From positions 682,001 through 746,000 of the forward strand of contig JAXDDX010000172.1 of the NCBI GenBank assembly GCA_034670405.1: a stretch of DNA of 64,000 nucleotides, written 5' to 3'. Positions within the stretch are counted from its first letter, which is position 1. Each line of letters begins with the position of its first letter. The notes beneath the pieces were generated by a model that did no database searches, had not been told where the DNA came from, and saw only the letters and a program-made list of their open reading frames with translations. This stretch comes from Hoplostethus atlanticus. Its lineage: Eukaryota > Chordata > Actinopteri > Trachichthyiformes > Trachichthyidae. Of the stretch, positions 2,810 to 63,637 are shown piece after piece. Position numbers and translations under genes: made by a program.

Positions 2810-46578
<43,769 letters not shown>

Positions 46579-48858: not shown

Positions 48859-49065
48859 TGTTCTGTTGTAGGATGCAGGCAGCAACATAGATCCCTGCAC
48901 AGTCTCTCAACACGCGAAAATGCCAGGACAGAGTGGATTCATTTTATTTTTAACGGCAACGGCTACAGTTTTTTCTGTGTGTGATGATCACTCCTCAGAC
49001 TGCTTGAGCAACGGCAGGATTAGCATCTAAATTGAAGCTTAAAGATGGAGCAATTCATAAGGTAC
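48859..49065 (+). pseudogene. THAP zinc finger, frameshifted (copy B)
   Basis: CSVVGCRQQHRSLHSLST then WIHFIF, followed by VCDDH: the C-x4-C and C-x2-H pairs of a C2CH THAP domain. One frameshift after GRI is needed before SKLKLKDGAIHK. A GTACTG after AAG could be a donor. Confidence 0.7.
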
Positions 49066-49499
49066 TGAAAAATTGGAATCTGTAAGTGTCACCATGTTTT
49101 GATTTAATTTACCAAATTAGTCTGGTTAGTATATTCAACTGCTGGTTAGCTAACGAGCTAGCGGGGCTAGCCACGGGCTTGTTGGGCGTGGAAGAAGTAA
49201 GAAAACTAAAGCTGGAGTCATTAAAAGTAAAGTAAAAGTAAAGTTATTGGTTGGAGTCAGGACTCATCTTTAAGTTATTTGTTGGGACCAGTGTCTGTTT
49301 TATAAGTCTGTCAGGCTCGGTAAACTTTAGCCACCATTAGTACAATCGCGTTTGGTTGTTTGCGCTGCGCTGTTTGGATGCAAATAGATTGCATCCAATA
49401 ATATATTGGCTAACTAGCTCAACAAAATTGTCAATCCTAGCTTGTCTGCAAGTTGTATTCAATAAGTTCATGGACATGAGCCATAAACGGACCAGCTAT

Positions 49500-49677
49500 A
49501 GCAGAGTGTCGCTCACACACCCACATACACAAACACAAGGCACAAAAGTACAATATTACACAGAATTGTTATCATTGAGAAACTAAGTGGAACCGCCTCA
49601 GCTGCATCTTCCCATTCTGGGTCAGACTCCGGCTCAAACATGTACGGTCTCAGTGTTGGTTCTGGAGCGGCCGCCAT
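49500..49677 (-). pseudogene. Antisense ORF of the THAP element, first exon-like piece (copy B)
   Basis: From ATG 49675-49677 the minus strand encodes MAAAPEPTLRPYMFEPESDP and EWEDAAE. The same peptide is kept in the copy at 63.5 kb with few changes. PYxFEPE starts remind me of the transposon-borne P2X7-C-terminus-like proteins of fish; this is a tentative memory-based link. Confidence 0.5.
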
Positions 49678-49989
49678 GGTGGTAAATTACAGTGTCAAGC
49701 TTATTTGCTTATCTCGCAATGCTACCTGAATCTTACTATGGCACATTGCAATCTTACAGTCCACGCAGTTGTGTGTTCAGCTGAGTGGTGTGTTCAGTTG
49801 TGTCAAAGTTAACATAAGCGGTTTTATCTTGCCACTAGAGGGAGCACTATGGGCTAACTAAATCACAACAAAGTTGACACTTTGAACACACCCCTTCCAT
49901 CTCCCCTTGCCCACGTTGAAGAAAGGCACGTTCTGATCATATTCTGTAAATATAATTGTCATAATTTGCTTGATAATTGATTGTGTCAT

Positions 49990-50092: not shown

Positions 50093-51000
50093 TCACGTCT
50101 CACAAGCAGATGAGGGAAAAAGGCATGTGTGTTTACAAGCAACAGCTGAGTGAGATTAATCTCTGGTGTGACAGAGAACATAAACGTGATGCGCACCTCT
50201 TAGGTGCATCGCAAGAAATTGATTTAAATCAATTTCTACACTGGCCAACTTTTTATTTTGTGGCAGCTGTGCTAGATGAGCCTATGCACAGGAAATGCTG
50301 AATATGATATCCTTTCATTATTTATTTAACAAAAACTCTGTGCAAAAATATGTGAACTTATATCCTTATTACTTGAGACAATCCAAAACACTAAACTTCT
50401 TCCTGAGCCATTCTTTGGTAGATTTGCTTGAATGCAAAATTAGGCATTGCATTGTTATGTTTTACTTAATAAAATAAATAAGAATTAAAACATTTTAAAG
50501 CCGCAGCTACAAACCTAAGCAAGCAATGCGAGGACTGGTGGAGCAAGGACTCCACCATGATCTGTTCCTAATGATCTTCGCTCCTTTCAATAGTGAAGGA
50601 AGCACTGTAGCAGCGTTCACAGCAGTTGTACACACTACTACAGCAAAAAACTATATTGTTTCTGTTGCCTCCTACAAAAGAATCGTGATACCCTTTCCAC
50701 CTCAAATTAAAAGTAAATCAGTCCCTCCAGGATGTTGCGATCGCAAAAATTAACGCAAGTTCAATTAATTGCCGCAATACTTGCAAGAGCTTGCATTTTT
50801 GCCAAACCCCCACAATATTCCCGCATAAAACGGTCAAATTGGCACGATGTTTGCAAATTTGACCAATCACCACACTTTTCTGCATAATATGGGCCAATCC
50901 AGAGCCACAAATAGCCTTGCTCCAATCAAATCATGTCAAGAAATCAACCTCCTCGTTCCAGTTTTTCACTAACAGCGGCGGTATTGCCAGCATGAAATGA

Positions 51001-51254
51001 GCGAACAGTTCACATTTACCAACAGCAAAGGATCGTGTAAAACAATTCCCCAATGTTTTGCATGAAAGTGGTGGTAAATTATTTTGTACTCCATGCAAGG
51101 TTGTGATGGAACACAAGCGAAAGTCGACAATTGACTGTCACTTCGCTACCGCAAAACACCGGCGAAGAATGGCTGGAACCTCAACAACACAACATAGACA
51201 AATCACCGTGACAGAGGCTGCAGCATCAAAGTCCTTACCTAGTGCTGAAAGAAG
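51001..51254 (+). pseudogene. CGGBP1-like BED finger exon of the hAT transposase
   Basis: Open from 51001 to an AG|GTGAGT donor at 51254/51255. It encodes KDRVKQFPNVLHESGGKLFC, TPC, HKRKSTIDCHFATAKHRRRM: a BED finger (CxxC, HxxxxxH). The LHE.GGKLFCT.C run is what I remember from vertebrate CGGBP1. No in-frame ATG precedes it; an ATG at about 50995 is in another frame (MSEQFTFTN), so a frameshift or missing exon is likely. Confidence 0.8.
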
Positions 51255-51425
51255 GTGAGTTCTCAATTCATTTAATTATGTTACTGAATAAAGTTGGTAA
51301 TGAAAATCTGGGAGAAAGAGAGAGTGTAGGGGATAGAGAGATGCAGGCACACGCATACCTCTGTGGGACTGACATAATTCATTATTTTACCTAACATGCA
51401 TCGGCCATTTTTGTGCTTAGATTGA

Positions 51426-52188
51426 CTGGGTCTGGGGGTCTCCACCTGCACTGCTGTCAACATCCCCCTCTCTAAGAGCGACCATCCTGTAATGAGGAAG
51501 TTTTTAAAGGAAAAAGTAGTTAATGGAGGAGCCATCCCTGGTGCTCACCAGCTACAAGAGAAATACTTGGGAGCAGTGTATGAGAAGGAAAAAGAGGCAA
51601 TGAAGACACATCTTGCAGGAAAGCCTATTGCTGTGATATTTGATGAGACTCCAGATATAGAGGGAAGATGCATGCTTAACATCCTCCTAGCACCACTGGA
51701 GAAGGATGAATCTGGGAGGGTTCTGGCCTACCTCGCAGACACTTAGAGCAGTGCAACCATTCCACTGTTTCCATGGCTGTGGTCAAGTGTCTACAAGAAT
51801 ATGGCATATCTAATGAGAACATCGTGACATTGACACAGATAACGCAGCATACATGAAGAAAGCTTATACAACTGCACTGCAATCTTTATTCCCCAACTCA
51901 CTGCACATCACATGCATGGCACACATAATGAATCTCATAGGCAGTGCCTTCCGCAAACCATTTGATCAAGTCAACATGTTCATGCCGAGTTTCTCACAGA
52001 TGTTCTACCATGCTGGCTCACGCAAAAAACAATACCTTCAATTCATGACAAACAAGATGCCAGCAGGAAAGAAGGCGAGCATGGCTCCAAACCCTTGTGC
52101 AGTACGGTGGAACTCATGGTTCACTGCAGTACAGTACCACTCTGAGCACTTTGAACTCTACAAGGAATTCATAGGAATGGAAATAGAG
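51426..52188 (+). pseudogene. hAT transposase core exon, frameshifted
   Basis: Opens with NIPLSKSDHPVMRKFLKE and VVNGGAIPGAHQLQEKYL, again CGGBP1-like, then passes beyond the CGGBP1 length into hAT catalytic sequence (KPIAVIFDETPDIEGRCML, first D). Frame changes are needed near 51743 and 51827 to reach DTDNAAYMKKAY and LHITCMAHIMNLIGSAF. It ends at ATAGAG|GTAAGA. Confidence 0.8.
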
Positions 52189-52306
52189 GTAAGATTTATT
52201 GATTTACAACTTCCCTCACACAATAAACACCCTGCAACATTAGAACATTAAAATTGTGTGCCTATGGCACTCCTTATGAATATTATAACATCTTAATTTT
52301 TTACAG

Positions 52307-52594
52307 GTATGTGGCAGAAGTGCACCACAGTCTGTTGAGAGACTATATGAGATGCTCCAAAATCCAGGCGTGGCTCAGCTCCTGCAGGTCCAGATCAACA
52401 TTATGGCAGACAAGTGTAAAGTAATCCTCCAGATTCTGGATATCTTTCAGAGCAGATGCCCTGTGACCAAGATTTTAAACTACCTGGATGATCTGCAGAT
52501 GAACTTCACTGCAAATAAAGAGTTACAGTATGAGGCATGTGCCAAATATTTTGAGCAGCTTGACCTATCCTGTATGTTGGTGTATGTTACATAA
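52307..52594 (+). pseudogene. hAT transposase downstream exon, truncated
   Basis: After an acceptor TTTTTTACAG (52306) the frame continues VCGRSAPQSVERLYEML and ILDIFQSRCPVTKILNYLDD and stops at 52594. The intron 52189-52306 has proper GT and AG. The final hAT dimerisation motif is absent. Confidence 0.7.
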
Positions 52595-53773
52595 AAATAA
52601 TCTGTAATAAAGCCATTTCAATTTATGCTCAGGAAAATAATGATGAATGAAAAATGATTTAATTTGGCTCTTGGAATTTAATACCCTTACAAGTTGAAGA
52701 GGTTGAGTGCAATAAATAATTTAATGTTTTTGTTATTTTTTGTATCTTAAGCGTTTTTTGCACACTCATTGTTACTCAGAAGAAAACAAGCTGAGATGTT
52801 ATTCAAACAGCAGAGAACACATGGATGCTCTACCACTGGCATATTGTTTCATGTTCAAGCGATAGATAGATTTAATCTGTTTACCAAGTTAGTGCTTAAG
52901 TATACGAATTTGGTATGAATGAGTTTCACACCTCCGCCTACAACCGTTGAACAGGTTGAATGTACTTTTGTTTGAGATATTAACCAAATAATATTTACAT
53001 TTTTGTTATCCAGAGTGTTTTGTTTGCATACAGGTATGGTTACTCAAACACCACCTTCACTGATGATATATTTTCATATTGTTTTACTCCTACTCTAAGT
53101 GGGACTAATTATATATTACTGGTAAGTTCTGCTGACTTGAAATTTTCAGCCATTCCGGCAGTTTTCCTGCAAGATAACAAAAAATATCGCAAATTGCATC
53201 GCAAATTTTGATAAAAGCCGCTGCAAATTGAATCGTTTTGGGCCGCAATAATCAGGAGAAAAACTGGTGGGACTGGTAAATACAGGCTTTACAGCCGCGC
53301 TACTCAACACACGGCCAACGGGCCGCATGCGGCCCAAGGTTAATATTATTGCGGCCCTTGGTTGAATTTTTATTGTCATAGCAACTACCAATAAAAATAT
53401 AATATTCTCATTTCAATGAACACAAACCATTTCTAAACTAAATTAGTACTGACCACAAGATGGCGATCGTGCATACTGTGCTTATTTAGCAATCGTGGGA
53501 TCAACAAAGAAGATAAAACAACACATGATCAGCGACAAAAACGCCCGGCGCTGGCACTGCCATTGATTTCCTATTTGGCAAGCGTTGCCGTCGATCCTAG
53601 CGTCGCTGCCGCCCTCGGCATTGTGCATCTGGGCGCAGACGCTGGCAGAGCCCCTGGCGCTGCGCTCAAAGTTCTACTATATTCAACTTTTACCTTCGCG
53701 ACGCTGATCTCTGCGACTCGAAACCAATCACAGCACAGTTTGATATCATAGCCACAAAATAAAAAAACAAACA

Positions 53774-53903
53774 ATGGAGGAGAAACCTGTTTTATGTGTG
53801 TCGGAGCATCCCGAGTTATACAACATGACGCTTAAATCATACCACGATCTGACTAAAAAGTTTGTGGCATGGAATGATGTCGGTTTACAGACGGGACTAC
53901 CAG
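53774..53903 (+). pseudogene. MADF-domain exon of a nested Harbinger fragment
   Basis: From ATG 53774, SEHPELYNMTLKSYHDLTKK then FVAWNDV and an exon end CCAG|GTTGGT. HPELY-x-MxLxSYxDxxKKxxAW is the MADF pattern of Harbinger partner proteins. GGGGCTTTCACATGAGCC (inverted, about 54150-54168) looks like a Harbinger end; the other end is not clear. Confidence 0.6.
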
Positions 53904-54208
53904 GTTGGTTGACAGCTTAGTACAGCTTTGTATATGCAGCCAGTCTATATTCACTAGTATGATCATTGGCGATGTGGTTAGCTACGGCTGATGCGGGCTG
54001 TAGTCCGAAATTGAACTCCACTCTATTCTTTCCTGAATGCTGTCATTTTAAAAACTCGACAGTGTGAAAGTAATGAATGTAATGTAATTCGCCTGGCACT
54101 GATCATGTGAAGGGGTCGCGCTCAACCTGGTGTTGACGCCGACGCTTTGCATGGCTCATGTGAAAGCCCCAACTGTGCAGGAAGTCTAGCCTAGCCTACT
54201 CTCAAGTC

Positions 54209-54439
54209 ATGGCAAAACCGGCAAAACGTAAAATTTCTGATGAACACAGGGTATTTCAAAAAGCATGGGAGGAAGAATTCGCTTTTGTTGGGGTAAATAA
54301 CAAACCAGTGTGCCTTCTTTGCCAGAGAACAATAGCAGTACCAAAACGGGCAAACGTTCAACGTCACCATGATAGCTATCACGGTGACTTGGAATTACAT
54401 ATCCATCTGGGGGTAATATGCCTATATTTATTTTATTAA
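54209..54439 (+). pseudogene. BED-type zinc finger ORF of the hAT element
   Basis: MAKPAKRKISDEHRVFQKAW followed by FVGVNNKPVCLLCQRTIAVP and HHDSYHG: CxxC and HxxxxH of a BED finger similar to the N-terminus of GTF2IRD2-like and FAM200/ZBED hAT-derived proteins. The frame ends after 76 codons; the DDE core is missing. Confidence 0.7.
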
Positions 54440-54661
54440 CCATTCTTGTGATTTATTGTAACAGCAATCTAACACTTTTACATTTAGTGAATAAAGCCTA
54501 CTTATTTTGTCATTTAATCATTTGATATCCATGTGGCTTGAAATAACACTACAAAGTAGTTTCTTATATTACCAAAAAATGTGGGTTGCGGCCCTTTGAC
54601 ACAGCTGTATCTTGCTGTGTGGCCCTTGAGCTATGTAAAGTTGAGTAGCCCTGCTTTACAG

Positions 54662-62384: not shown

Positions 62385-62580
62385 GTAGGATGCAGGCAGC
62401 AACATAGATCCAGTCTCCCAACACGTGAAAATGCCAGGACAGAGCGGATTAATTTTATTTTTAACGGCAACGGCTAGTTTTTTCTGTGTGTGATGATCAC
62501 TCCTCACACTGCTTGAGCAACGGCAGGATTAGCATCTAAATTGAAGCTTAAAGATGGAGCAATTCATAAGGTACGTGGCC
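62385..62580 (+). pseudogene. THAP zinc finger, decayed (copy C)
   Basis: Same codons as in copy B (GCRQQHRS, WINFIF-like, VCDDH), with a short deletion and the same frameshift before SKLKLKDGAIHK. Confidence 0.6.
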
Positions 62581-62624
62581 CATCTGCAAAATTGGAATCT
62601 GTAAGTGTCACCATGTTTTGATTT

Positions 62625-62970
62625 TTACATTACATTACATTACAGTCATTTAGCAGACGCTTTTATCCAAAGCGACTTACAATAAGTGCATTCAACATAG
62701 GTAGGCAAGAAAACTACTAGTCACCAGAAATCGTAAGTGCATTTCCTTCCTAAACAAGCAACTAAGAGCATAACTAGTGTTAAGGTAAGAGTGCAATAAG
62801 TTAGCAACCTACTATATCTTAAACAAATGAGACAAATAAGATAATCAAATAAACAAGAGCTAAGACAAATAAGTGAACCAAATAAGCAAGAGCTAAGACA
62901 AATAAGTGTATCAAATGAACAGGAGCCAATAAACAAGAGCTCAGACACATAATTGACGATTGATTGTAAA
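62625..62970 (-). mobile_element. 5'-truncated L2 LINE with 7-bp target duplication
   Basis: TTGATTT is found at 62618-62624 and 62971-62977; copy B has the empty site. The minus strand matches the 3' region of the LINE at 29.9-30.11 kb (TTTAGGAAGGAAATGCACTT) and continues to TAAGTCGCTTTGGATAAAAG and a (TGTAA)n end. Confidence 0.9.
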
Positions 62971-63452
62971 TTGATTTAATTTACCAAATTAGTCTGGTTA
63001 GTATATTCGACTGCTGGTTAGCTAACGAGCTAGCGGGGCTAGCCACGGGCTTGTTGGGCGTGGAAGAAGTAAGAAAACTAAAGCTGGAGTCATTAAAAGT
63101 AAAGTAAAAGTAAAGTTATTGGTTGGAGTCAGGACTCATCTTTAAGTTATTTGTTGGGACCAGTGTCTGTTTTATTAGTCTGTCGAACATGTCAGGCTCG
63201 GTAAACTTTAGCCACTATTAGTACAATCGCGTTTGGTTGTTTGGCTGCGCTGTTTGGATGCAAATAGACTGCATCCAATAATATATTGGCTAACTAGCTC
63301 AACAAAATTATCAATCCTAGCTTGTCTGCAAGTTGTATTCAATAAGCTTATGGACATGAGCCATAAACAGACCGGCTACAGCAGAGAGTGTTGCTCACAC
63401 ACACACATACACAAAACAAGTACAATATTACACAGAATTGTTATCATTGAGA

Positions 63453-63581
63453 AACTAAGTGGAACCGCTCAGCTGCCTCTTCCCATTCTGGGTCAGGCTC
63501 CGGCTCAAACATGTATGGTCTCAGTGTTGGTTCTGGAGCGGCCACAATGGTTATGGTAGATTTCTGCATCAAGCTTATTTG
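63453..63581 (-). pseudogene. Antisense PYMFEPE ORF (copy C)
   Basis: VAAPEPTLRPYMFEPEPDP and EWEEAAE match the copy B peptide. The ATG of copy B is altered here; an ATG further upstream (MQKSTIT) opens the frame instead. Confidence 0.5.
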
Positions 63582-63637
63582 TTTACCTTGAGCAGCATGA
63601 GCGCTCTGCTCTCCGCCTCCGCCAGGCGATTGCGTGT

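Follow-up and report, generated by a model that had tools for sequence, protein, structure and literature searches.

In hAT transposons of the Hermes type, the transposase binds repeated subterminal words with its binding half and cuts with its DDE core, and the insertion is marked by a short duplication of the target site, which in the case of Hermes is 8 bp long. Duplications of 8 bp are usual among hAT elements (PMC3942097; PMC12730594), and groups with 5-, 6- and 7-bp duplications also exist, 5 bp corresponding to hAT5 and 6 bp to hAT6 (PMC12730594). The CGGBP-type proteins descend from hAT elements, mainly hAT19 (Yellan et al., 2021; PMC8097297), and a hAT19 origin of CGGBP1 is backed by a further study (PMC9004415); this descent, which an earlier sequence-only reading of the locus described here had mentioned, has been in print since 2021. 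In the CGGBP1-like hATs of Yellan et al. (2021), which have fish among their hosts, a BED finger, a Hermes DNA-binding region and a hAT transposase are joined in one protein. An element of this type was found at positions 50719–53275, plus strand, of a 64-kb stretch of the genome of Hoplostethus atlanticus (C172:682001–746000, contig JAXDDX010000172.1; hereafter the window), which was studied together with the whole assembly of 632.8 Mb in 1161 contigs. It is an ordinary further member of the published CGGBP1-like hAT group, and there is high confidence in reading it as a dead, internally deleted cut-and-paste hAT, hAT19-like by its protein and with a 6-bp duplication, for which the mechanism and the family with shared ends are as proposed below.

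The element opens with the left terminal inverted repeat CAGTCCCTCCAG (50719–50730, plus strand) and closes with the right end CTGGTGGGACTG (53264–53275), where the right terminal inverted repeat lies on the minus strand as CAGTCCCACCAG. CAG... ends are typical of hAT terminal repeats, and short terminal inverted repeats, here of 12 bp, are a hAT trait that the element displays. The hexamer GTAAAT abuts it on both sides (50713–50718 and 53276–53281) as the target-site duplication. The left 141 bp (50719–50859, plus strand), with the perfect palindrome TTGCGATCGCAA inside, are common to a non-autonomous family and show 92.9% identity to the majority sequence of that family. The right 140 bp (53136–53275, plus strand) contain TTGCGGCCC and, on the opposite strand, TTGCGAT twice; their first 130 bp are shared with the same family (88.6% to the majority sequence), and the identity of the right end to matching single non-autonomous copies is 83–92%. 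No copy other than the element itself was found in the window.

Between these ends, the 654-aa protein P0002, annotated from the icefish Pseudochaenichthys, was matched by tblastn in five collinear pieces of 53–83% identity (residues 1–90 at 53%, 97–199 at 83%, 202–231 at 73%, 232–350 at 76% and 349–437 at 69%), which imply three exons with GT...AG introns, all on the plus strand. Exon 1 (50992–51254) encodes a CGGBP1-like zinc-finger part (CxxC ... HxxxxxH, ligands assigned by eye) and has an in-frame TGA stop at 50998–51000. It is followed by intron 1 (51255–51420, placed from the sequence and the gap between protein matches) and by exon 2 (51421–52188), which encodes a second CGGBP1-like segment of Hermes DNA-binding type (approximately 51435–51614) and then the first part of an RNase H-like core. 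This exon is damaged by a stop at 51423–51425 in its disturbed start and by frameshifts near 51743 and 51832. Intron 2 (52189–52306, placed from the sequence and the protein matches) leads to exon 3 (52307–52569, placed from the protein match), which extends to residue 437 of P0002. The reading frame is fused at about codon 437 straight onto a 3′ untranslated part (52570–53135), and the same 3′ sequence is located after the end of the reading frame in a copy on contig C166. On this comparison at least 180 or so codons have been deleted from the window copy, including those for the third catalytic residue and the hAT dimerisation region. In a further copy, on contig C128, the match reaches about residue 474 before the 3′ part likewise follows.

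The C-terminal dimerisation region (PF05699), deleted in the window copy, scored above the Pfam cut-off in P0002 and in the related proteins P0005 and P0060 and below it in P0030 and P0032. An active transposon would have an open frame with all three catalytic residues; the window copy has stops, frameshifts and a C-terminal deletion instead and is, judging from its sequence, a dead transposon. The sequence-only reading had described a CGGBP1-like binding part continuing into a hAT catalytic core within one element with matching ends. The ends were found exactly where it had placed them, the CGGBP1-like and core stretches that it quoted are present, and the domains stood, whereas the reading frame proved to be broken, the C-terminal third to be deleted and the right terminal repeat, compared with that of the C128 copy, to be short of bases just inside position 12.

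The fold had to be established through relatives and a structure model, since Pfam listed no BED or hAT domain on the window pieces at E-values up to 10 and a PDB sequence search with exon 1 gave no match. The model of P0002 has a Hermes-like RNase H core with a helical insertion, of which the window copy keeps the part up to residue 437; the Hermes transposase itself is only 12–14% identical to P0002 in structural alignments. When joined across the break in exon 2, the binding half of 149 residues matched all four amniote CGGBP1 proteins examined (alligator, a sparrow and two turtles) with 38–41% identity over 141–143 columns and E-values of 4e-33 to 4e-30. Each half also matched all four by itself, with E-values of 1e-15 to 1e-14 over 51–79 columns for exon 1 and of 5e-15 to 4e-14 for exon 2, as the sequence-only reading had claimed of the first two exons. 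Its caveat that the likeness could be limited to the general BED pattern did not apply: both halves match, and as Pfam yielded no BED model with exon 1 at E-values up to 10, the similarity, judged on these alignments, exceeds that pattern. The element thus matches over both the BED and the Hermes DNA-binding parts, as is the trait of CGGBP1-like (hAT19) elements. Among named proteins, its closest matches come from fish and, in one case, from a lamprey.

Duplication length was scored in 39 copies, two with transposase remains and 37 from the left-end search. Exactly six identical flanking bases were present in 27 of these, the right end being taken where the flanks matched over the greatest length, a rule that biases the count toward finding a duplication. 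The chance identity of two 6-mers in the window is 0.0003, and the 27 duplications favour T at position 3 (22/27) and A at position 4 (18/27). A duplication of 8 bp was tested and rejected, as none of the 39 copies had seven or more matching bases. It is therefore very improbable that the element is an ordinary hAT of the Ac, Buster or Tip group, with the 6 bp a decay artefact: the usual hAT duplication of 8 bp (PMC3942097; PMC12730594) would favour such a group, but exactly six bases recur even in copies that have diverged by only about 2%. The lack of an 8-bp duplication does not exclude a hAT, since groups with 5, 6 and 7 bp have been described (PMC12730594). The element has the 6-bp duplication of hAT6 (Kapitonov and Jurka, 2007, as cited in PMC12730594), a likeness in duplication length.

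Other copies were sought by DNA search of the same assembly. A 266-bp piece of exon 2 gave six matches on five contigs. The C128 copy is 90–91% identical along the element, except for 143 bp that are absent from the window copy; its flanks differ, and it is bordered by a 6-bp duplication of its own, GTTAGT. For the ends of the family, a first look at the genome gave several hundred candidate places. Searches with the left 272 bp and the right 140 bp each yielded 40 scored matches (of 397 and 376 candidates, respectively), and 37 of the left-end matches cover only the first 126–141 bp. Among the 38 copies with a right end, 22 measure 1.1–1.3 kb and show a mean divergence of 2.0% (1.3–3.3%) from their majority sequence, which indicates that the non-autonomous family is young. 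Apart from short end-word matches, nothing in the interiors of these copies matched the window copy at E-values up to 1. To judge from the shared ends, a transposase of the CGGBP1-like hAT kind is the most likely mover of this family.

Eight words, picked after the sequence had been seen, were tested for enrichment in the ends against 500 shuffles. TTGCG, counted on either strand, occurs seven times in the left and right ends of the window copy against 2.0 expected (1/500 shuffles reached seven) and eight times in the ends of the non-autonomous family, again against 2.0 (0/500), while its frequency in the interiors is 1.3 and 0 per kb, respectively. TTGCGA occurs four times in the ends of the window copy against 0.4 expected (0/500). 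GCAA was strongly enriched as well as TTGCG, and GCGGC and TTGCA weakly. Most likely, the N-terminal BED-type finger and the Hermes-type segment of an intact relative would recognise repeated words of the TTGCG type lying within about 140 bp of each end, and its RNase H-like DDE core would carry out both excision and insertion, the latter through a staggered cut of 6 bp. The window copy itself has lost this ability. The young non-autonomous family would supply both ends in cis and be mobilised by a transposase of this kind.

Several observations weigh against this reading. No full-length intact transposase of the lineage was present among 39 and 35 protein matches (68/128 and 85/130 candidates scored); the mover of the young copies may have been lost, be missing from the assembly or lie among the unscored candidates. 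The sequence-only reading had suggested looking for intact copies in fish genomes, and in that of the fish itself this search of the scored matches came back empty. The modelled protein is a relative, and the structural matches listed for it leave out the first 120 or so residues, which form most of the binding half. The 6-bp duplication departs from the usual 8 bp of hAT elements and is not exact in 12 of the 39 copies: ten have none (two of these being one base short of six), one has five bases in an A run and one has no right end. Right ends were not located for copies on contigs C3 and C270, which therefore show no duplication, the C270 copy being one of the ten and the C3 copy lying outside the 39. 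The interior of the non-autonomous family has one unexplained match to the C128 copy (40 bp, 82.5%, E-value 6e-6) at L037:4921–4960, within the 143 bp absent from the window copy. As to the words, their choice was made after the fact, neither CGG, the triplet of CGGBP1 itself, nor CGC alone was enriched in the ends, and the TTGCG words are candidate transposase sites, nothing more.

To place the element relative to CGGBP1, a tree was built from 45 rows, comprising the window copy and those of 115 proteins that matched at least 101 query residues. The window copy lies inside a clade of 23 rows, all from fish except for one lamprey protein (support 97/95). Amniote CGGBP1 groups with the tuatara protein P0064 (98/75), within a six-row group (90/92) outside the fish and lamprey clade. 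When the window copy and the four CGGBP1 proteins were forced into one clade, the log-likelihood was 62 lower and the arrangement was rejected (p-AU 4.9e-5). Owing to the long branch of the tuatara row, this rejection is firmer than the exact position of that row. In a second tree, of the catalytic core (67 rows), the tuatara protein had a branch of 2.05 with a long-branch warning, and this tree was not used for its position. Relatives from Latimeria and turtles are present in both trees, none of them carrying the hAT19 name. The sequence-only reading had suggested that this transposase looks like the parent of CGGBP1, and that role is ruled out by the tree position and the clade test. There is likewise very little probability that the element belongs to the very lineage that was domesticated into amniote CGGBP1; the identity over the binding region to all four proteins would fit such a lineage, but the joint clade was rejected, and P0064 and several unnamed metagenome proteins are nearer to alligator CGGBP1. 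The closest to the alligator protein were P0064 (51%), P0073 (48%) and P0043 (47%), and rows of the fish clade reached 38–44% among the 28 best matches listed. CGGBP1 is, moreover, a short host protein (167–208 aa) without a catalytic core, its likeness to the window copy lying in the two-part DNA-binding region. On this placement the element looks like a cousin of the source element of CGGBP1 rather than its parent.

It should also be noted that in both trees the lamprey protein P0001 (Lampetra planeri) is nested among teleost relatives and is 82% identical to icefish P0002, which makes it a candidate for horizontal transfer or contamination.

It is also very improbable that the element is or was a domesticated CGGBP-like host gene rather than a transposon copy. 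Exons like these do bear the name 'CGG triplet repeat-binding protein 1' in fish database entries, and many independent domestications have been argued (Yellan et al., 2021; PMC8097297). Against such a gene stand the terminal repeats and target-site duplication of the locus, the stops that interrupt the frame of the binding half, the frameshifts of the core, and the presence elsewhere of a second copy whose flanks differ.

Compared with the elements of Yellan et al. (2021), the window copy is dead and internally deleted, and the extract of that paper makes no mention of a 6-bp duplication or of a non-autonomous family. No literature describing this family was found by title or abstract, in a search that did not reach most subscription journals or Repbase Reports, and no mention of hAT5 was found in PMC6004678. 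New here are the 6-bp duplications, the young non-autonomous family with the same ends and the enrichment of TTGCG words in the ends.

Several other features lie in the window. A second hAT-like element is located directly downstream (53295–54653), with inverted ends around CTACTCAAC and an 8-bp duplication, CTTTACAG, at 53287–53294 and 54654–54661; it contains one SPIN-DOC-type zinc-finger exon (ORF 54164–54439; PF18658, E-value 2.7e-6, just above the cut-off). A dispersed direct repeat (48901–49714 and 62412–63588) is about 92% identical between its copies, and 49503–49714 also matches contig C117. From ORFs inspected by eye, there are Tc1/mariner-like transposase pieces (42372–43468, minus strand), non-LTR reverse-transcriptase-like reading frames (5769–6564 and 27389–29711, plus strand) and pieces of a beta-adaptin (AP1B/AP2B)-like gene (15338–16999 and 40131–40487, minus strand).

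The element enlarges the group of repeated suppliers of CGGBP-like proteins by one whose ends, exon order and duplication length are defined and which has a non-autonomous family that was mobile recently. In a simple motif test, the catalytic-core motif was detected in 8 of 31 further proteins from the fish search (P0081–P0111), many of them named CGGBP1, so that the name 'CGG triplet repeat-binding protein 1' may have been given to transposon exons in some fish entries. The TTGCG words are concrete candidate sites at which the binding preference of the CGGBP-type domain could be checked. A tentative suggestion, rather doubtful at present, is that the CGGBP1-type hATs form one lineage with a 6-bp duplication which moved between hosts as far apart as lampreys and teleosts and whose binding half reads TTGCG/CGG end words. 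If this is true, the CGG preference of CGGBP1 would be a relic of end recognition, which could be tested by means of the young non-autonomous family.
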